This document shows, one piece after another, positions 1 to 19,937 of a stretch of DNA of 40,786 nucleotides. Numbering within the stretch: the stretch's first letter is position 1; every line of letters starts with the position of its first letter. Under the pieces are notes generated by a model. It saw nothing but the letters and a program-made list of their open reading frames with translations. It had not been told where the DNA came from and did not search any database. The position numbers and the translations under genes are program-made. The DNA comes from Verrucomicrobiales bacterium (GTDB lineage Bacteria; Verrucomicrobiota; Verrucomicrobiia; Limisphaerales; UBA9464): contig SYMJ01000241.1 in NCBI GenBank assembly GCA_005805505.1, positions 1 through 40,786 of the forward strand. The letters are read 5' to 3'.

Positions 1-228
1 GACCCGGCGTTCCCCGGCCCCCCGGTGCTTCCGGATCACCGACCGCCCGGTGAGGGCACCGGGCCTACAACATGTCCGTTGCCAACCAATAGCCCACCGT
101 GTAGGCCGGGTCCCAGGACCCGGCGTTCCCCGGCCCCCCGGTGCTTCCGGATCACCGACCGCCCGGTGAGGGCACCGGGGCCTACAACACGTCCAGACCG
201 CCCGGTGAGGGCACCGGGCCTACAACAA
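1..228. repeat. REP-like hairpin cluster: 116-bp direct repeat (1-~72 and 117-~188) plus a third partial copy (196-~228)
   Basis: GCCCGGTG-aggg-CACCGGG(C) hairpin occurs at 45-64, 161-180 and 200-219, each followed by cctac (GTAG on the minus strand). An oppositely oriented GTAG+GCCGGGTCC-ca-GGACCCGGC hairpin lies at 101-124. The block sits just beyond the 3' end of the pilT-like gene. Confidence 0.85.
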
Positions 229-231
229 GAT

Positions 232-1314
232 TCATTTGCCGTTCGGCTTGAAACGATCGGGGTCTCGGGCCCGGGAAATCGCGGCATCGTAAGAAATTAG
301 ACACTTCGAATAGAGGTCGTAGAGACAGTTGTCCATCAGCACCGAACCATCCCGGCCGCCCAACTGCATAATCGTGTAAAGTTGATGCAATTGATTCTCG
401 CGAATCACCGACCGAGCGGCCGCAGTCATCATCAAGAGTTCGTAAGCCAAGACTCGGCGAGTCCGATCGATGGCAGGCATCAGATCCTGGGCGATGACGC
501 CCTGAAGAGAATTGGCCAACTGCAGCACAACCTGTTTCTGAGCGCTCCCCTCGAAGATCCCGACGATCCGCTCCAGCGCATGCATCGCGCTGGGGGCATG
601 GAGCGTAGCCAGCACCAGATGCCCGGTTTCCGCTGCGGTGAGCGCGGTCTGGATCGTCTCATGGTCGCGCATCTCGCCGATGCAAATAATGTCGGGATCC
701 TGCCTCAGGGCGTGGATGAGCGCATGGTTAAAGGAACGCACATCGGTCAGCACCTCCTGCTGCACCACGATGGCCCGACGGTTTTCATGAACCCGTTCGA
801 TGGGATCTTCAATGGTCAGGATCTTGCAGCGCCGCTCCCCATTGATGAGGTCGACCATGTAGTTCATGGTCGTGGTCTTGCCCGCTCCGGTGGGACCAGT
901 GATCAGGATTAACCCGTTGGTCTTACGAGCCAGTTCATCGATGCGAGACGGAAGGCCAAGTTCCTCGCGAGTCGGAAAGAGCTTTCCACAGAACCGGCAA
1001 CTCAGCTCGGTGACCCCATTGCGCCGGTAGAACGTGACCCGGATCCGACCGGCCACCGCGTGGCGGATGGAAATACACAGTTCCCAAAGCTGATCAAGCT
1101 TCTGCCGCTGCAAGTCGGTCAGGAGCGATTGGGCCATGACTTCGCAGTCCTCGGGCGACACGGCGTCTTCATCGGCCAGGAGGATCTCGCCGGTCACCCG
1201 AAAGGCGGGCGGAACTCCGACGATCACATGCAAATCGGAGGCACCCATCGACACGGCTTCGATGAGCAGTCGATCCATCCGGGAGTGGATGGCGTCGGCG
1301 ATATGAGGGTTCAT
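232..1314 (-). CDS. PilT/GspE-family secretion/twitching ATPase
   Basis: 360 aa; Walker A GPTGAGKTT, LTIEDPIE, Walker B/His-box region IICIGEMRDHETIQTALTAAETGHLVLATLHA typical of PilT. Confidence 0.93.
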   Translation of the reverse strand: MNPHIADAIHSRMDRLLIEAVSMGASDLHVIVGVPPAFRVTGEILLADEDAVSPEDCEVMAQSLLTDLQRQKLDQLWELCISIRHAVAGRIRVTFYRRNGVTELSCRFCGKLFPTREELGLPSRIDELARKTNGLILITGPTGAGKTTTMNYMVDLINGERRCKILTIEDPIERVHENRRAIVVQQEVLTDVRSFNHALIHALRQDPDIICIGEMRDHETIQTALTAAETGHLVLATLHAPSAMHALERIVGIFEGSAQKQVVLQLANSLQGVIAQDLMPAIDRTRRVLAYELLMMTAAARSVIRENQLHQLYTIMQLGGRDGSVLMDNCLYDLYSKCLISYDAAISRARDPDRFKPNGK

Positions 1315-2087
1315 GATCTAAGAAATCGTCGAAAAACACCGGCGCACCGCTCCAGGAAGCCCGGGCGCTGAGAACGGCTCAAACCATCGCTCGCTGCCAG
1401 GGAATCGGGCTGGATTTGCCAAGCCTGAGTGAAGGAAACCCGGGCCTCGTCATGGAAACTCAGCAGAAGCTGGCAGTCTCCCGCCAGTAGCCATGGCGAA
1501 ATCTCACCCGGGGCCAGACTGCAGGCGTCGCGGGCCGATTGCAGCGCCTTGGCGAACTGGCCGTGGAATCGGCGGATCCGCCCGATCAACCAGAGGCAGG
1601 TCCAGTCGGACGGAAGAATACTGCGGGCCCGTTCGAAGCAATGGTCAGCCTGTTTTTCGCGGCGCGACAAGAACACATCGCCCCGAGCCAGCCAGACATA
1701 GGCCGAATCACCCCGCTCCTCAATGCTGGCATCGGAGAAGGCGATGGCATTGTCGTGGTCCCCCAAGCGCCCGAGAGCGACGGCCTTCGCGGCCAACAAC
1801 TCCGGCGCCTGCGGGAATCGCTCCAGAGCCTTGTCGGCCCACAACCGGGCTTCACGGAATTCGCCCAACTCAATCAAAGACCGCACCTGCCCCGCCCAGG
1901 CCGGAATGCTCGTCGGATTGTGCTCGAGCACGCGGGCGAAAAGCCGCAGGGCCAATTCGAAGTCACCCAGGCAGAATGCGCGCGCGGCCTCCGACGACCA
2001 GTGTGTCTCTCCGGCCGCCGGCCGCAGAGACTGCTGCCCGGAAGAGTCCGGACCTGTTTCAAATTCCAGTTTCCCAAAGCGGCTCAT
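1311..2087 (-). CDS. TPR-repeat protein
   Basis: Likely start MSRFGKLEFETG at 2087; TPR-like repeats (ALRLFARVLEHNPTSIPAWAGQVRSLIELGEFREA...). 4-nt ATGA overlaps with both neighbouring genes. Confidence 0.8.
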   Translation of the reverse strand: MSRFGKLEFETGPDSSGQQSLRPAAGETHWSSEAARAFCLGDFELALRLFARVLEHNPTSIPAWAGQVRSLIELGEFREARLWADKALERFPQAPELLAAKAVALGRLGDHDNAIAFSDASIEERGDSAYVWLARGDVFLSRREKQADHCFERARSILPSDWTCLWLIGRIRRFHGQFAKALQSARDACSLAPGEISPWLLAGDCQLLLSFHDEARVSFTQAWQIQPDSLAASDGLSRSQRPGFLERCAGVFRRFLRS

Positions 2088-3040
2088 GGCTGTGTTTGAT
2101 CGTGGAAAAACCATCGGCCATAGACCCGACCTAGGAAATCGGAATGTCGCACCGCCGACATGCGGTGGAAGGCCTCTGCGAAGGGTGCCTCGGCATTGCG
2201 GCGGACTCCGCCGACCATAACGCCCTGCCGTGGCACCCGCACCGTGGGCCAAACAAACCACTGTCCGGGTTCCACCACTTGCTCGCCCTCCATCGGCATG
2301 CCCTCCAGGCGCGGCACCTCACGACCGTTGACTCGCACCAACTTCGGCGTGAAGACGATCCGGTCGCCCGGAAGCCCAAACACCCTGCCGAAAGTTGGGC
2401 CCGGCGCGAAAACCCAGGCAATCTCCTCCTGAGGTTGGATGCGGAACCCCTCTTGATGGAATGCGATCAAATCCCCGCGCTCCACTTTGGAGACCCGGAC
2501 CCGAGGGTTGAACACCGCAGCCATGGTTTGATCCTCAGTGGTGATTCGCAAGGGGGTGGCCACGCGAAGCCGGAACTGATCGAAGCCCGGCAGGTAGACC
2601 AACCAGTAATAAATCGCCCAGCACACCAGCGGCAGCAGGATCCGCTCGGCGAGGCTGGCCGGGTGGCCCTGGTTCGCTTCATGCTGACGCAGCATCAGGA
2701 AGGCCAGTCCGCTGGAATGGCAGGAAGCCATGCCTCCCAAAAACCATCCCATGGTCGGATTGCACAGCAGGATCACGGTGGCCACCGCGCTCAGCCACCA
2801 ACCCACCAAGAAGACCCGGCCCAAGGTCCGCTGACCCAACAGCGCATAACCTCGGCCCGGAATGAGGGCTGCCAAGAACCACTGGAATCCCGTCACCAAC
2901 CTCATCCATTGGCCTAGCGGGCTACTCCTCCACATCCGCCGGAGCGCCAGCCCGAGACGATCGATCGACTGGCCCAGTCGCGGGGAGATCCACCGACGCC
3001 CAGCGCGCGGCGGGTAATAGCTTGAGGTCTCGGAATCCAT
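2084..3040 (-). CDS. Signal peptidase I (S26)-like membrane protein, probably catalytically inactive
   Basis: 318 aa; several hydrophobic segments; RGDLIAF and GRVFGLPGDRI match S26 boxes, but the SM-box Ser, the Lys before GLPGD and the GDN..DSR box are not recognisable. Confidence 0.75.
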   Translation of the reverse strand: MDSETSSYYPPRAGRRWISPRLGQSIDRLGLALRRMWRSSPLGQWMRLVTGFQWFLAALIPGRGYALLGQRTLGRVFLVGWWLSAVATVILLCNPTMGWFLGGMASCHSSGLAFLMLRQHEANQGHPASLAERILLPLVCWAIYYWLVYLPGFDQFRLRVATPLRITTEDQTMAAVFNPRVRVSKVERGDLIAFHQEGFRIQPQEEIAWVFAPGPTFGRVFGLPGDRIVFTPKLVRVNGREVPRLEGMPMEGEQVVEPGQWFVWPTVRVPRQGVMVGGVRRNAEAPFAEAFHRMSAVRHSDFLGRVYGRWFFHDQTQP

Positions 3041-3061
3041 CCGCCGAAGAAGTTGGGAACC

Positions 3062-3262
3062 TCAGTGCTGCTGCTTGTTGTGCAAGGTCACATCCTCCTC
3101 CGGTTCATAATATCCAGAGGTGTGCCGCAATTCTTGGGTTTTTCCGATCATCTGCTCGAAGAACCGGAGGACCTCGACACAGCCTTTGCCTTGGAACCCT
3201 TCGACATGAATTTCGACCTCTCCGGTGGGGCCTATGGTGATTTCGTATTCGCGCGCTTTCAT
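3062..3262 (-). CDS. DUF2997 family small protein
   Basis: 66 aa MKAREYEITIGPTGEVEIHVEGFQGKGCVEVLRFFEQMIG...; the GF(K/Q)GK.C core is characteristic of DUF2997. Confidence 0.8.
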   Translation of the reverse strand: MKAREYEITIGPTGEVEIHVEGFQGKGCVEVLRFFEQMIGKTQELRHTSGYYEPEEDVTLHNKQQH

Positions 3263-3317
3263 GGGGCTGTTGGTCGGTTGGAATCTACTGGGGGGATGAC
3301 TGCGTCAGGACCGCACC

Positions 3318-3791
3318 TTAATTCTGCCAATGTCGGACCCGGAGACGGATAGACTGATTCTGTTCTACGGTCTCCTCGACCAAATCCATCCCCTTGCCCG
3401 CCATCTCGGATTTGAGCTTCGCCAACACATAGTGCTGAACCGTCCGACCGGCGATCTCGTCGCCAATGGCACGCAGCTGCACCTCGGAGAGTCCCTCTCC
3501 GGTGACACACACCGAATCACGCCCGCGGGCATCACGGCTGAACTCGACATTCACCCCGTCGCGAGCCAACTGGATCCGCTGATCCCGACCCAACGTGCCC
3601 GTCACGGCCGAACAGTTCGGCACATCGAGGGTCACTGTGTTTGAGCCGGTACGGAGGTCCTGGTTCAGGCCTTGTTGGGCGACCTCTCGGGCCACGCTGA
3701 AACCCATCGACACCGCCGCCGAGGCGACTGCGGCGCTAATGGCAGGCCAAGAACTAACGACGATGGGGGCGATGATGGCGACGGCACTCAT
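3318..3791 (-). CDS. Probable DUF1257 (Ycf35)-like protein with a hydrophobic N-terminus
   Basis: 157 aa; C-terminal half (IRLRVRHW ending) resembles the DUF1257 tail; located between the DUF2997 gene and the Ycf46-type AAA gene. N-terminal third is hydrophobic, Ala/Val-rich. Confidence 0.55.
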   Translation of the reverse strand: MSAVAIIAPIVVSSWPAISAAVASAAVSMGFSVAREVAQQGLNQDLRTGSNTVTLDVPNCSAVTGTLGRDQRIQLARDGVNVEFSRDARGRDSVCVTGEGLSEVQLRAIGDEIAGRTVQHYVLAKLKSEMAGKGMDLVEETVEQNQSIRLRVRHWQN

Positions 3792-3869
3792 AGTTTTTTG
3801 GGGGATGTCAGGACGTTATGTGGTTGGACCGGGCTCGCTTAGATTCGTCACGCAGGATCGATCCAATGA

Positions 3870-5435
3870 TCAGAACTCCATCTTTCTCGGCAAATGTTCC
3901 CCCAGACCCGCGTTGCGGGGAGTGCTGGCATTGCGCGCCCGACCCTCGGCCCAACTGCGAAGCCGGTTGATTTGCTCATCCATGGTGCGGGCCAGCGGGA
4001 CGGTTTGACGGATGGAATTCAGGACATGCTCGGTCGTCAGATCTCCCCCATCGTAGAAGGCCTCGTACAAAGCGCTGTTGATGGCTTCTTCAATCTCGGC
4101 ACCACTGAAGTCGGTTGAGGCTGCCGCCAAGACGGGTAAATCAAAGTTTTCGGGAAACCGACCCCGCCGCCCGATGTGTACTTTAAAGATATCGGCGCGC
4201 TCGGGTTCTGCTGGAAGATCCACGAAGAAGATCTCGTCGAGGCGGCCTTTGCGGAGCAACTCCGCCGGTAAGTGCGAGATGTCATTGGCCGTGGCGACGA
4301 CGAACACCGGCGCATTCTTCTCGCTCAACCAAGTGAGGAAAGTACCAAAGACGCGGGCGGCCGTGCCCCCATCACTCGAACCACTCCCCTGGGAACCGGA
4401 AAAGGCCTTGTCGATTTCGTCTACCCACAAGATCGCCGGGGCAACTGACTCAGCGACCGCGATGGCGCGGCGCACGTTCTCTTCCGACGAGCCCACCAGG
4501 CTTCCAAACATCCGCCCCATGTCGAAGCGCAGCAACGGCAACTGCCACTGGCTCGAGATGGCCTTAGCGCAAAGGCTTTTGCCGCACCCCTGCACGCCCA
4601 GCAGCAGCACTCCCTTGGGGAACGGTAAACCAAAGATCCGCGCTTCCGGCGAGAAGGCCGATGACCGTTTAACCAGCCAGTCCTTGAGAATGGTCAGGCC
4701 ACCCACGCTGCTGAAGTTCTCGGTGGTGGCGTAATACTCCAGCAGGCCGCTCTTGCGGATAATTTGCTGCTTCTCGGCGAACACCTCGTTGACGTCGTCT
4801 CCGCAGAGGCGCGCGTCCTTAACGATGATCTTGGCGAATACGTTCTCAGCCTCGCCGAGCGTCAAACCCAGGGCCGCTTGCAGCAACCGATCACGACCCG
4901 CCGCGTCGAGATTAATGACCACTTCCTTGATAGAGCGCACATCCTCCAGAATTCGATCCAGCAACGCACCCAGGTCTTCCTTAGTGGGCAATGGGAAACT
5001 CAAGACGGTAATTTCCTTGTCCAATTCCGCGGGAATCTCCAGCAGTGGCGACACTAGGATGACCGTCTTGAAACTGTTCTTCAGGTTCAGCGCGATATCC
5101 TTGAGCTTACGGATGACGGCGAAATTGGACTTCGCTAGGAACGGATGAAAATCCTTGAAGAGGAAAATCGCCGGTTCCACCTGTTCGAGCACCTGATCCA
5201 GAGCGGCCAGCGGGTCTTTGGTGGCACCCGAGCGCCCCTTCTGACTTTGGATATTCGTGCCCGCCGCTATGATGCCCGTGGAATAAGACCACTCGAAGGC
5301 CTTCTTGCCCCGGCGGGCGGCGATGTCCATCACCACAGGGATCACGCGCAGCTCCTCGCTGGTCTGGATATAGATCAGCGGATACCGAGCTCGGATGAGC
5401 ACCTCGAGTTCAGAGGCAAACGTGTTGGAGGTCAT
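3870..5435 (-). CDS. Ycf46-type AAA+ ATPase
   Basis: 521 aa; N-terminus LEVLIRARYPLIYIQTSEELRV and FLFKDFHPFL are Ycf46 hallmarks; Walker A GVQGCGKS, Walker B ILWVDEIDKAF, sensor VATAND, arginine finger region RKGRLDEIFFVDLP. Confidence 0.92.
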   Translation of the reverse strand: MTSNTFASELEVLIRARYPLIYIQTSEELRVIPVVMDIAARRGKKAFEWSYSTGIIAAGTNIQSQKGRSGATKDPLAALDQVLEQVEPAIFLFKDFHPFLAKSNFAVIRKLKDIALNLKNSFKTVILVSPLLEIPAELDKEITVLSFPLPTKEDLGALLDRILEDVRSIKEVVINLDAAGRDRLLQAALGLTLGEAENVFAKIIVKDARLCGDDVNEVFAEKQQIIRKSGLLEYYATTENFSSVGGLTILKDWLVKRSSAFSPEARIFGLPFPKGVLLLGVQGCGKSLCAKAISSQWQLPLLRFDMGRMFGSLVGSSEENVRRAIAVAESVAPAILWVDEIDKAFSGSQGSGSSDGGTAARVFGTFLTWLSEKNAPVFVVATANDISHLPAELLRKGRLDEIFFVDLPAEPERADIFKVHIGRRGRFPENFDLPVLAAASTDFSGAEIEEAINSALYEAFYDGGDLTTEHVLNSIRQTVPLARTMDEQINRLRSWAEGRARNASTPRNAGLGEHLPRKMEF

Positions 5436-5674
5436 GGAGAAGTCGATTCAGTGGAGGGGGAGGCGTCGCTCGAATCCAGCGCGGTCTGAAGAAAAAACGC
5501 CAGTTCCGGAGTCAAGTTGTGGGCAAGGATGCGCCCGTCGGTCAGCAGCATTAGCTCCGAAATCACCGGAACCAACTCAGGGCCTGGAACAGAAATAGTG
5601 GACCCGGATGGTTCCGGCCCCGCGGTCAGTCCACAGGGCTCGGTTTCATTTGATCCTTCAGAGAGCGGCGTCAT
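5432..5674 (-). CDS. Small uncharacterised protein (80 aa)
   Basis: 4-nt ATGA overlap with the ycf46-like start; compact C-terminal core LVPVISELMLLTDGRILAHNLTPELAFFLQTAL behind a low-complexity N-terminus. Confidence 0.6.
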   Translation of the reverse strand: MTPLSEGSNETEPCGLTAGPEPSGSTISVPGPELVPVISELMLLTDGRILAHNLTPELAFFLQTALDSSDASPSTESTSP

Positions 5675-5686
5675 GCAGTGAGTCTT

Positions 5687-6655
5687 TCAGTCAATGAACC
5701 GCAGTCCGGCCTCCATCCCAATACGGGTGGCCTCCTGGGCCTCACTCAACCGGCCGGGTGCCTTCAGTTCCGCATGACGGCTGCTGAACCAACCCGGCCA
5801 GAAGCCGGTCCTCAAGCTCACCTCCACCTGGGGCAGGTGCTCGGCCATCCACGCCGCAGCCGGGCGCCAGCAGCATTCGAGGTGCCCCGGCAAAAGGAGG
5901 TGCCGCACAATCAGGCGGGTCTGCCCCGCCGCCCAGAGCAGGTTGTCCTGGACGGTCGAGCAGTAACCCTCCACGCGGGCGATGCGACGAGCGCAATCGT
6001 CGTTGCCAAACTTGAGGTCTGCCACCCAACTATCGAAGATCCCATCCAACAGGGCATTGGACACCGAAGTGCCATGGGCGTTGGTTTTCCACACCACAGG
6101 CAATCCGTCCGGCAGGGCCGCCACGAGTTCCAAGGCCGAAGCCAAATGAATCGTCGGCTCGCCCCCGAGGATCATCAGGCTGCGCACCGCACCGGATTCC
6201 CAAGCCCGACCGATGCGGCTCAGCAGAGCCTCCCGCTCGAGCCCTTCGGGAACGGAACCCGCCGACGCATCCCAACTCTCGCGACCGGTGTTGCAGAAAT
6301 CGCACCGGAGATCGCACCCGCTGAAGGCCACCGCAAAGACCGGACACAAATCAGATTCATCCCCCACTTCGATCTGGGCACTGAAAATACGCCCCACGGG
6401 ACCGGCATGACAGGGGCCTCTTTGGCCGGCCAGACGATCCACCCCGCAGCGATGCGCGCACCAATGACAATGACGCAATTGTTCGCGTGCGATGGCGGCC
6501 CGTTGGGATGCCAACCCAGCGCGCGAACCCGTCTCCGAGTGCCCGGGTCCAACACATCGAATCGGGTTCCGGCCGCGGCTCGGGCTCGCAACATAAAACC
6601 CCTCTCGCAAACCCGGTTTCTGGACCGAAGACAGGCTCAAAAGAGTTGCCTCCAC
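5687..6655 (-). CDS. Radical SAM protein, PflX/COG1313-like
   Basis: CHWCAHRCGVDRLAGQRGPC N-terminal Cys motif plus the radical SAM cluster CDLRCDFC and LGGEPT; GTG start predicted. Confidence 0.85.
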   Translation of the reverse strand: MEATLLSLSSVQKPGLREGFYVASPSRGRNPIRCVGPGHSETGSRAGLASQRAAIAREQLRHCHWCAHRCGVDRLAGQRGPCHAGPVGRIFSAQIEVGDESDLCPVFAVAFSGCDLRCDFCNTGRESWDASAGSVPEGLEREALLSRIGRAWESGAVRSLMILGGEPTIHLASALELVAALPDGLPVVWKTNAHGTSVSNALLDGIFDSWVADLKFGNDDCARRIARVEGYCSTVQDNLLWAAGQTRLIVRHLLLPGHLECCWRPAAAWMAEHLPQVEVSLRTGFWPGWFSSRHAELKAPGRLSEAQEATRIGMEAGLRFID

Positions 6656-6885
6656 CAGGGTTTTAAGTCGGCACCGATCGGCGGAGCGCCACCCGCCGGA
6701 TTCGCGAGGCTCGCTGTCACGCGCGCTCGCAAATCTTCCGGAACCGGCGTCTGGGACCGGTCCCAGGCGATCAGCGCCTCAGGAGTCTCGAAGTCGACCG
6801 GCGTCCGACCCTCCGTGTGCTGAGTGGACGCACTTTCCAAGTTCGCCTGAGTGACTGTTTGAAGTCGTTGGGACGGGGTGCTCAT
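6637..6885 (-). CDS. Small hypothetical protein next to the ECF sigma factor
   Basis: 82 aa ORF between the ECF sigma and radical SAM genes, overlapping the latter by 19 nt; contains TPVPEDLRARVTASLANP, reminiscent of short anti-sigma N-termini but no HxxxCxxC motif. Confidence 0.5.
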   Translation of the reverse strand: MSTPSQRLQTVTQANLESASTQHTEGRTPVDFETPEALIAWDRSQTPVPEDLRARVTASLANPAGGAPPIGADLKPWWRQLF

Positions 6886-6909
6886 GGGGGAATTGGCAAA
6901 AATAGGGGT

Positions 6910-7539
6910 TTAGCCGGTCTTGACGAATGCAGCCGAGAAGGCTCGGCGGGCTCGGTGCAGTTTACCACGGACGGCATCGGAACTCTGTTGGGTAATCTCG
7001 CCGACCTGTTCGTAGCTCAGATCTTGATCAGCGACCAAGAGCAGCAGGCACCGGTACTCCTCCGGCAGGCAGTCTAAGGCGTTTTGAATTCGTTGACCCA
7101 GTTCCTTGGTCTCGAGGGCACGGAGAGGGTCCCCAGCCGTGGAAGGCTGAGACTCCAAGAGCGAGGTGTCGTCGGTGAGGTGGATATTTCGCGCAGACCA
7201 TCGCTGCCGCAAGTTGGTGCAATGGTGGAGGGTGATCCGGTAGAGCCAGGTCCGGATCTCGGAGTCACCCCGGAAAGATCCAAAATTCCGGAAGGCCTTC
7301 ACGAACACGTCATGGGCGGCGTCTTGCGCCTGCGCCGCATCCCCCAGAAACCGCAACGCCAAATAATACACCGGCTGCGCATGGGCTGCGTAAACCGCCT
7401 CGAAATCGGCCGACAACCCTCTGTGTTCACCCACACCGCCCCCGACTTCAGGATCCTTCCCCTGCTCTACGCAGGCGATCTCCTTGGGTTCGGGCGCGAT
7501 CATCACCTCCTTTGGACAAGGCCACCGCCCAAGTGTCAC
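6910..7539 (-). CDS. ECF-family RNA polymerase sigma factor
   Basis: Region 2 AQDAAHDVFVKAFRNFGSFRGDSEIRTWLYRITLHHCTNLRQR; region 4 LPEEYRCLLLLVADQDLSYEQVGEITQQSSDAVRGKLHRARRAF. Start codon uncertain. Confidence 0.9.
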   Translation of the reverse strand: MTLGRWPCPKEVMIAPEPKEIACVEQGKDPEVGGGVGEHRGLSADFEAVYAAHAQPVYYLALRFLGDAAQAQDAAHDVFVKAFRNFGSFRGDSEIRTWLYRITLHHCTNLRQRWSARNIHLTDDTSLLESQPSTAGDPLRALETKELGQRIQNALDCLPEEYRCLLLLVADQDLSYEQVGEITQQSSDAVRGKLHRARRAFSAAFVKTG

Positions 7540-7668
7540 GCAGGAAAAAATTCCATCGAATCACTTCGGGTGCGCCCTCAACCGCGAAACCTCGTCGGAG
7601 TTGTGCCCGGCGATCCATTCCTCCCCAATCCTTCCCTCCAAGACGTTTGATGCCTAGGGTTCGCGCCT

Positions 7669-18959: not shown

Positions 18960-19937
18960 TTACCCGAGCGCATCGACCCGTAGATCTCGAAGCGTCGACA
19001 GATCTGACCAAGGTGCACCACGGATAGGACGCGCCCCGTCTCGGCGTTTAGACCCAAAGGACGCACGGTATCGGAAGAAAACTGCATCAACGAACTTGCG
19101 GGAGCCCAGCGCCACCCCATCGGTCAAGTGTCGGACCCTGAGTCGCAGGATTTCAGCCTCGCTCAACTTTCCTCCCTTCAAGAGCACCGAACGAATGGTT
19201 TCCCGATCCAATTCCCGCTTTGAGCTATGCCCACCAACGCCTGCCTGAACGAACATAGATTCCCTATAACGAGCTGCTGCTTGCCCCCAATTCGGCATCG
19301 AGAAAACCCTCATAATTCCTCGTTGCAAATCCCTTTGCCCTACCAAAGCCGCCGAGTAGCCGCAGAATCGATAATCCTTAGGATCACCCACCAGACCTGC
19401 CCGCACTGGATTGAGATCAATGTAAGCAGCGACCGTCCGCAAAGCCCTAGGCGAGTCCTCCACCAGCACACTTTTGAAGCGTTCCGCCCAAAGAGTACCA
19501 AAGCGTTCCGTCCGTCGATTGTACCAGCGACTGAAACGCTGTTTGAATTCCTTCATAAACACCGACACATCGCCCATTCGCCCTAGAAGCGTCTGGCGAA
19601 TGTGTCCCGGCATCTGGCCCTTGCCCTGCCCCATCATCGCATCCCGCGCCAGAACCACCAAAAAACCTTGCGACCCATAGAAACCTTCGGCCCTAAGGAA
19701 CAGCTCCTCATCACTCAACGCCACAGCCTTTGGAACCCGCAACAGCAGATGGAAATGATTCCCCATCATGCAATAAGTGATCACCTCCAACCCGCAGAAC
19801 CGAGCCAGCGGCATCAACAGATCCACCAACCGAGCCTTGCACAAATCATCCAGCAGCATCTGCCCGCCCACCGTCCGTGAAACGCAGTGGTAGACAGCAC
19901 CTTCAGAGCCCCCCCCTTTAATCCGCGCCAACCTCAT
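18960..19937 (-). mobile_element. REP-associated tyrosine transposase (RAYT, Y1_Tnp / TnpA_REP family)
   Basis: GAVYHCVSRTVGG N-terminus, HUH-type GNHFHLLLRVP, YIDLNPVRAGLV, FGTLWAERFKSVLVED motifs. Confidence 0.88.

Follow-up and report, generated by a model that had tools for sequence, protein, structure and literature searches.

The closest described relatives of the gene cluster considered here are the Ycf46 and Ycf35-DUF2997-Fed7 sets of cyanobacteria and plastids. In Synechocystis the operon of slr0374, the gene for Ycf46, responds to shortage of iron, sulfur and nitrogen, to salt, high light and oxidative stress (PMC7496141), and DUF2997, ycf35 and fed7 form a cyanobacterial gene cluster (PMC4284462). 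The cluster presented here occupies the minus strand at positions 232-7539 of contig SYMJ01000241.1 from a Verrucomicrobiales bacterium (assembly GCA_005805505.1), a stretch of 40,786 nucleotides (nt) that was analysed whole and is referred to below as the window. Its ten genes encode an extracytoplasmic function (ECF) sigma factor, the small proteins orf82 and orf80, a radical S-adenosylmethionine (SAM) protein, a Ycf46-type AAA+ ATPase, a DUF1257-like protein (DUF1257L), a DUF2997 protein, a membrane protein resembling signal peptidase (SPase), a tetratricopeptide repeat (TPR) protein and a PilT-family ATPase. We give an even chance to the view that a self-contained ECF regulon, of which the cluster forms the core, serves a type IV filament, either a pilus or a pseudopilus like that of the type II secretion system (T2SS), in the cell envelope.

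With the cyanobacterial and plastid sets the cluster shares a Ycf46-type AAA+ protein, DUF1257, DUF2997 and an Fe-S neighbour, the stress-responsive expression that adds to the likeness being cyanobacterial data; unlike the cluster, those sets have no described PilT, TPR protein, pseudo-SPase, radical SAM protein or ECF sigma factor, and the DUF1257 protein of the cluster is divergent with a hydrophobic N-terminus. Plasmid-borne AAA-DUF1257-DUF2997(-DUF3150) sets in Manganitrophus and Geminocystis likewise keep these three genes adjacent or nearly so, but no ECF, radical SAM, SPase-like, TPR or PilT genes are annotated beside them. The type IVa pilus and T2SS, with their motors and associated proteins (PilT, PilB/GspE, PilC/GspF and pseudopilins), resemble the cluster in its PilT-family ATPase and in a GspE-GspF-prepilin operon that lies under the same promoter elsewhere; they differ in that the cluster PilT forms its own clade and the cluster is without secretin, peptidase or pilin, and the known sets do not include a Ycf46 module or their own ECF sigma factor. 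ECF operons of the RpoE-RseA type also begin with an ECF gene followed by an obligate small partner, under an autoregulatory promoter with an ECF-like -10 element (GTCTAA), whereas here GCGTGAC takes the place of GGAAC as the -35 element, no anti-sigma domain is recognised in the partner, and the start codon falls 4-5 nt past the -10 element. The SPase-like protein has the fold of signal peptidase I (SpsB/LepB, family S26) but differs in its missing conserved Ser/Lys dyad, its extra N-terminal helices and a YYPPR motif. An initial annotation of the window, made from the sequence alone, knew of no described system with this composition, and we found none in open-licence PubMed Central (PMC) papers, an account in a subscription journal being possible.

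The ten open reading frames (ORFs) are co-directional, as that annotation had it, with ATGA start/stop overlaps at 5432-5435, 2084-2087 and 1311-1314 and a widest intergenic gap of 78 nt (3792-3869) between the Ycf46 and DUF1257L genes. The ORF ends that it gave also hold, apart from the ECF start: this had been placed at 7539 and is most likely GTG 7506 or ATG 7503, because a predicted promoter (P1) occupies 7511-7541. The annotation had further made its proposal of a linked system depend on co-conservation beyond this strain. A species-level scan for Ycf46 loci, with one genome per species, yielded 80 loci. Almost all carry the label Verrucomicrobiota, and most come from metagenome-assembled genomes (MAGs), although Geminisphaera colitermitum TAV2 (L115), an isolate, is among them. 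Around the Ycf46 orthologues of relatives the ten genes stand in identical order, and the order is retained in 46 of the 48 loci with sufficient flank for comparison, a count that, like those that follow, does not represent independent trials, the loci sharing ancestry and coming mostly from MAGs. Within this 48-locus set the ECF and orf82 genes occur together in 42/42 loci and DUF1257L, DUF2997 and the pseudo-SPase in 27/27, never separately in either case; TPR and PilT are paired in 35 of 37 loci (two exceptions), and orf80 is present in 31 of the 33 loci bearing the radical SAM gene and in none without it. A short variant, ECF-orf82-Ycf46-TPR-PilT, is recurrent. Outside the class, genome G228 has Ycf46-DUF1257L-DUF2997-SPase-like-TPR-PilT with the radical SAM gene on the opposite strand, and G195 and G147 keep the radical SAM, Ycf46, DUF1257L, TPR and PilT genes together, plus a DUF2997 gene, so that the core recurs there partly or wholly. 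A TPR-PilT pair of the cluster clade is also found elsewhere in genomes G040 and G096, whose Ycf46 loci are without it. On the evidence of gene order, the ten genes are a conserved system in Verrucomicrobiota whose sub-modules travel as units.

The regulation of the cluster is indicated by a promoter-like motif. Scanning of the ECF upstream regions for the standard ECF -35 element, GGAAC, gave nothing consistent. Enrichment of k-mers upstream of the ECF genes identified GCGTGAC and GTCTAAT, separated by a strictly fixed spacer of 16 nt, giving the consensus GCGTGAC-N16-[TG]GTC[TC]AAT. A weight matrix run on the 80 loci returned 100 sense-strand matches, against 2 antisense, 2 for the reversed and 4 for the complement control. 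Matches lie within 150 nt upstream of the ECF gene in 56/64 loci and of the DUF1257L gene in 33/44 (0 for the reversed control in both cases); the ECF count is partly circular, as these sites trained the matrix, while the DUF1257L and out-of-cluster sites did not. Across the 80 loci no match was found within 150 nt upstream of the other eight cluster genes (reversed control 0), and three loci have one farther off, at 153-210 nt, upstream of the radical SAM gene (L081) or the TPR gene (L099, L130). The window contains exactly two sites, P1 and P2 (Table 1), the next best match in its 40.8 kb scoring 2.6 bits. The cluster therefore has the look of a single autoregulated regulon that probably has two promoters, P1 before the ECF gene and, internally, P2 before DUF1257L. 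In 49 of 54 cases 4-5 nt separate the -10 octamer from the first start codon in frame with the ECF gene, and the ECF mRNA is therefore probably leaderless. The out-of-class clusters L153-L155 have no motif (best score 8.7 bits), and for this reason regulation by the ECF seems confined to the class, the gene core being older. The motif also precedes the gene of a membrane TPR protein (L114:4608, L089:6781, L311), which in two loci lies upstream of the ECF gene.

The same motif points beyond the cluster. A search for exact matches to the consensus covered 245 genomes of the order, some of them of the same species as loci of the 80-locus scan, and gave 70 sites in 56 genomes, the reversed pattern occurring in none. 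Flanks were read for 69 of these, the 70th (G067:C2) being a known ECF site: 34 precede an ECF gene and one more a truncated ECF gene, four precede a GspE-type ATPase gene, with one further site of identical sequence before a truncated GspE at a contig end, and four precede a GspF-GspF operon of the same kind, so that the GspE and GspF sites together come from nine genomes. Single exact sites stand before DUF1257L, an in-trans TPR-PilT pair, the gene of a membrane TPR protein and one more GspF-like gene; TolC-like, ABC ATPase and histidine kinase genes are repeated targets, and part of the sites that then remain is likely due to chance. The regulon operon has the order GspE-GspF-GspF-prepilin-like proteins. 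Of 21 genomes tested for the ECF, 12 had a single clear orthologue and the rest none; a site lies upstream of the regulon GspE in 7/8 genomes with the ECF (G005, G055, G101, G067, G040, G022, G088) and in 0/5 genomes without it (one-sided Fisher's test, by hand, P = 8/1716 = 0.005). Within the order, five genomes have both the regulon GspE and Ycf46, four Ycf46 only, five GspE only and nine neither; this co-occurrence alone is not striking, and the link is carried by the motif. A control shared between the cluster and the GspE/GspF/prepilin operons of relatives is thus supported, as far as promoter sequences can tell. Three histidine kinase targets (L319, L320, L321), all of one genus, hint at sensory input to the regulon.

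The family assignments of the initial annotation were for the most part borne out by profile scans. The ECF sigma factor matches sigma-70 r2 and r4_2 only, both above cut-off and with no region 3 match, and the radical SAM call is likewise supported; this protein has further weak matches to AmmeMemoRadiSam and pyruvate formate-lyase (PFL) activases, and carries CX3CX2C and a conserved upstream Cys set (C43, C46, C50, C62, C94, C98 and C101, conserved to at least 97% across 45 orthologues). Neither orf82 nor orf80 has a family match in these scans. As orf82 always accompanies the ECF gene and yet matches no anti-sigma domain, it is a candidate anti-sigma factor or adaptor; orf80 is possibly a substrate or adaptor of the radical SAM protein. 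In 17 of the 48 loci (e.g. L032, L065-L072) orf82 and the radical SAM gene are separated by a gene for a rhomboid-family membrane protein, which may free the sigma factor through intramembrane proteolysis.

Ycf46 has intact AAA+ motifs in the alignment (Walker A and B, sensor 1 and Arg); its closest solved proteins are CDC48/p97 (E 1e-58), and cyanobacterial and Treponema AAA proteins match it over the full length, N-terminal domain included, at 46-53%, with full-length paralogues within the class. The DUF2997 protein passes its family profile (47 bits against a cut-off of 24) and has one Cys that is invariant in the alignment. As to DUF1257, the window protein does not match Pfam DUF1257 (PF06868), whereas its G228 orthologue passes at 23.3-23.4 bits (cut-off 22.2) and hhalign of the DUF1257L profile against true DUF1257 gave E 2e-4 at a probability of 48%. 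Its AlphaFold model is of low confidence (mean predicted local distance difference test, pLDDT, 69) and matched nothing in a structure search; we call the protein a divergent DUF1257. In three loci (L045, L046, L047) true DUF1257 and DUF2997 accompany a Ycf46 paralogue next to what by eye are a DnaN-like clamp and a RecB-like nuclease, which puts the three genes in a replication- or mobile-element-like setting. On the Treponema succinifaciens plasmid NC_015386.1 (L270, L272, L273), a 4Fe-4S activase-like protein, a Ycf46 that is 53% identical and DUF2997 lie in a VgrG/gpV/DUF4157 locus, from which the Ycf46 module may also serve contractile injection systems.

The membrane pseudo-protease proposed earlier is matched by the SPase-like protein. 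Its model (pLDDT 86) retrieved SpsB with Foldseek at 4.4e-6, giving a signal peptidase I fold, and neither residue of the catalytic Ser-Lys dyad is conserved in 30 orthologues. The cluster PilT has invariant Walker A/B, Asp and His boxes, so that its catalytic motifs are intact, and its TIGR01420 score agrees with the earlier call of a PilT-like ATPase. The possibility that it is the ordinary PilT of the cell was rejected, since it belongs to a long-stemmed clade of its own (support 100/100), distinct from the canonical PilT that G000:C42 carries beside PilB.

Table 1. Genes of the cluster and its two predicted promoters, in window positions
Feature	Position	Strand	Evidence and remarks
P1, predicted ECF-type promoter, GCGTGACACTTGGGCGGTGGCCTTGTCCAAA	7511..7541	-	Position weight matrix (PWM) 36.0 bits; 4-7 nt 5' of ECF start codon
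ECF sigma factor	6910..7506 (ORF listed to 7539; start corrected)	-	PF04542 5e-13, PF08281 6e-11
orf82, small ECF partner	6637..6885	-	82 aa; C-terminal WWxRLF tail; beside ECF in 42/42 loci
PflX/AmmeMemoRadiSam-like radical SAM protein	5687..6655 (start uncertain, about 6595-6655)	-	PF04055 (Radical_SAM) 2e-8
orf80, small protein	5432..5674	-	80 aa; conserved core ElliLpDGrilaHnlTP
Ycf46-type AAA+ ATPase	3870..5435	-	AAA 1.6e-27
P2, predicted internal promoter, GCGTGACGAATCTAAGCGAGCCCGGTCCAAC	3823..3853	-	PWM 17.5 bits; inside 78-nt gap
DUF1257L, divergent DUF1257/Ycf35 protein, hydrophobic N-terminus	3318..3791	-	G228 orthologue passes PF06868
DUF2997 protein, invariant Cys28 (GFxGxxC)	3062..3262	-	PF11211 2e-12
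Membrane pseudo-signal-peptidase (SPase-like)	2084..3040	-	PF10502 (Peptidase_S26) 3.7e-6; YYPPR N-terminus, predicted membrane helices, S26 beta domain
TPR protein, MSRFxxLEF N-terminus, without obvious signal peptide	1311..2087	-	TPR family matches; N-terminus from consensus
Dedicated PilT-family ATPase	232..1314	-	TIGR01420 372 bits (cut-off 319)

Directly 3' of the PilT stop, window positions 1-232 contain direct repeats of high GC content (CCGCCCGGTGAGGGCACCGGGCCTACAAC, at 43-71 and again at 198-226, related copies lying in the interval) that look like repetitive extragenic palindromic (REP)-type elements, and the ORF at 18960-19937 is by eye like a REP-associated (Y1-type) transposase, possibly related to them.

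The initial annotation envisaged a system under the control of an ECF sigma factor that heads it, with links to a PilT-like motor and to a membrane pseudo-protease. This view is supported by the co-conservation, by a motif that stands before the ECF and DUF1257L genes and is absent before the others, and by the signal peptidase fold without the dyad; new relative to it are the promoter inside the cluster, the regulon targets beyond the cluster and the modular variants. We favour a filament as the object of this system because gene order and modules are conserved, the core occurs outside the class and the motif precedes GspE/GspF operons, and because TPR-PilT is kept elsewhere when off the locus, the PilT clade is distinct and the pseudo-SPase lacks the dyad. 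The promoter sequences support that the ECF, with its obligate partner orf82, drives its own operon from P1, a second transcript, DUF1257L-DUF2997-pseudo-SPase-TPR-PilT, from P2 and, in other genomes, a GspE-GspF-prepilin operon as well. An envelope signal would free the sigma factor, PilT would be a dedicated retraction or disassembly motor with the TPR protein as its adaptor, the pseudo-SPase would bind prepilin-like or signal-peptide segments without cleaving them, Ycf46 would act as an AAA+ unfoldase aimed by the small adaptors DUF1257L and DUF2997, and the radical SAM protein would modify a partner, possibly orf80. Filament components at the membrane would in this way be remodelled, cleared or re-set. 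More tentatively, the cluster may be an undescribed envelope nanomachine, in which a dedicated PilT motor, a catalytically dead signal peptidase and a Ycf46-DUF1257-DUF2997 remodeller, matured by radical SAM chemistry and run by the ECF, extract or recycle prepilin-like membrane proteins.

Several observations weigh against a filament. While the regulation is well supported by sequence, the filament function is inferred. The cluster itself contains no assembly ATPase, GspF platform protein, secretin, prepilin peptidase or pilin; three loci (L102, L121, L128) have ECF-orf82-Ycf46 alone, and DUF1257, DUF2997 and Ycf46 also occur elsewhere without PilT. Targets of the motif include a TolC-like outer membrane efflux protein (OEP; three genomes), an ABC (ATP-binding cassette) ATPase (two) and a histidine kinase (three), and in G135 both ECF and GspE are present with no site upstream. 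No orthologue of the regulon GspE was found in G000 and G116, of the window's own family, or in G056 and G096, G000 being only 80% complete. The filament link thus rests on relatives, and in the window's own family it is the weakest step of the mechanism.

Less probable than either reading above, though the likeliest of the rivals, is a redox or stress proteostasis module, that is, a stress-induced Ycf46-Ycf35-DUF2997 unfoldase with Fe-S chemistry (here the radical SAM protein, in cyanobacteria the ferredoxin Fed7), for which PilT, TPR and pseudo-SPase would be repurposed membrane-positioning parts that serve no filament. The stress responses of the slr0374 operon and the DUF2997-ycf35-fed7 cluster cited above speak for it, as do the invariant Cys of DUF2997 and the ability of ECF-orf82-Ycf46 to stand alone at a locus; it leaves unaccounted the motif before GspE/GspF/prepilin operons, the retention of TPR-PilT elsewhere in genomes whose locus is without it, and the intact catalytic motifs of PilT. 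We think it unlikely that the regulon builds a secretion device rather than a pilus (T2SS-like GspE/GspF/pseudopilin with TolC/ABC), with Ycf46 and the pseudo-SPase as chaperones of the exported substrate. Its targets do include a TolC-like OEP, an ABC ATPase and the GspE-GspF-GspF-prepilin operon, and the modelled pseudo-SPase may bind signal peptides, but the TolC and ABC targets come from only three and two genomes and a PilT-family retraction ATPase lies outside the standard T2SS.

Anti-phage defence, or an accessory role in contractile injection, is improbable. The PADLOC match of the AAA domain to the defence ATPase IetA (2e-20), and the Treponema succinifaciens plasmid with its 4Fe-4S protein, Ycf46, gpV and DUF2997 close together in a VgrG/DUF4157 locus, would suit such a role; the IetA match, however, spans only the shared AAA fold, the other PADLOC matches are weak P-loop and radical SAM ones, the cluster has no tail or baseplate genes, and its order and regulon are stable across a class, unlike shuffled defence islands. 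The IetAS system itself was rejected, the likeness being to the AAA fold only and PADLOC matching IetS to none of the ten proteins. We likewise see little prospect that the motif is the operator of another dimeric regulator (GACA...TGTC half-sites), with the ECF merely one of its targets: it does have partial inverted symmetry, and L081 carries it with no ECF detected nearby, but the 16-nt spacer and the 4-5 nt from -10 to start codon are fixed, ECF-less genomes lack the GspE-upstream site, and across a 25-genome search every match fell in an ECF-bearing genome. That the genes are neighbours through shared ancestry without any functional link is very improbable, for although the loci are related, mostly from MAGs and not independent, this is largely contradicted by distant taxa that keep the order and all-or-none modules and by a common promoter that appears to act in trans as well.

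Ycf46, Ycf35 (DUF1257) and DUF2997 are functionally obscure despite their persistence in plastids, cyanobacteria, plasmids and phages, and in this cluster a single regulon joins them to a sigma factor, a motor and a membrane partner. The promoter is sharp enough for target prediction, which makes their function testable outside photosynthesis. The cluster adds a putative sigma-controlled filament or secretion regulon to a poorly studied phylum. If the nanomachine reading is true, it would suggest that in plastids and cyanobacteria, too, Ycf46, Ycf35 and DUF2997 form the remodelling core of comparable membrane machines.

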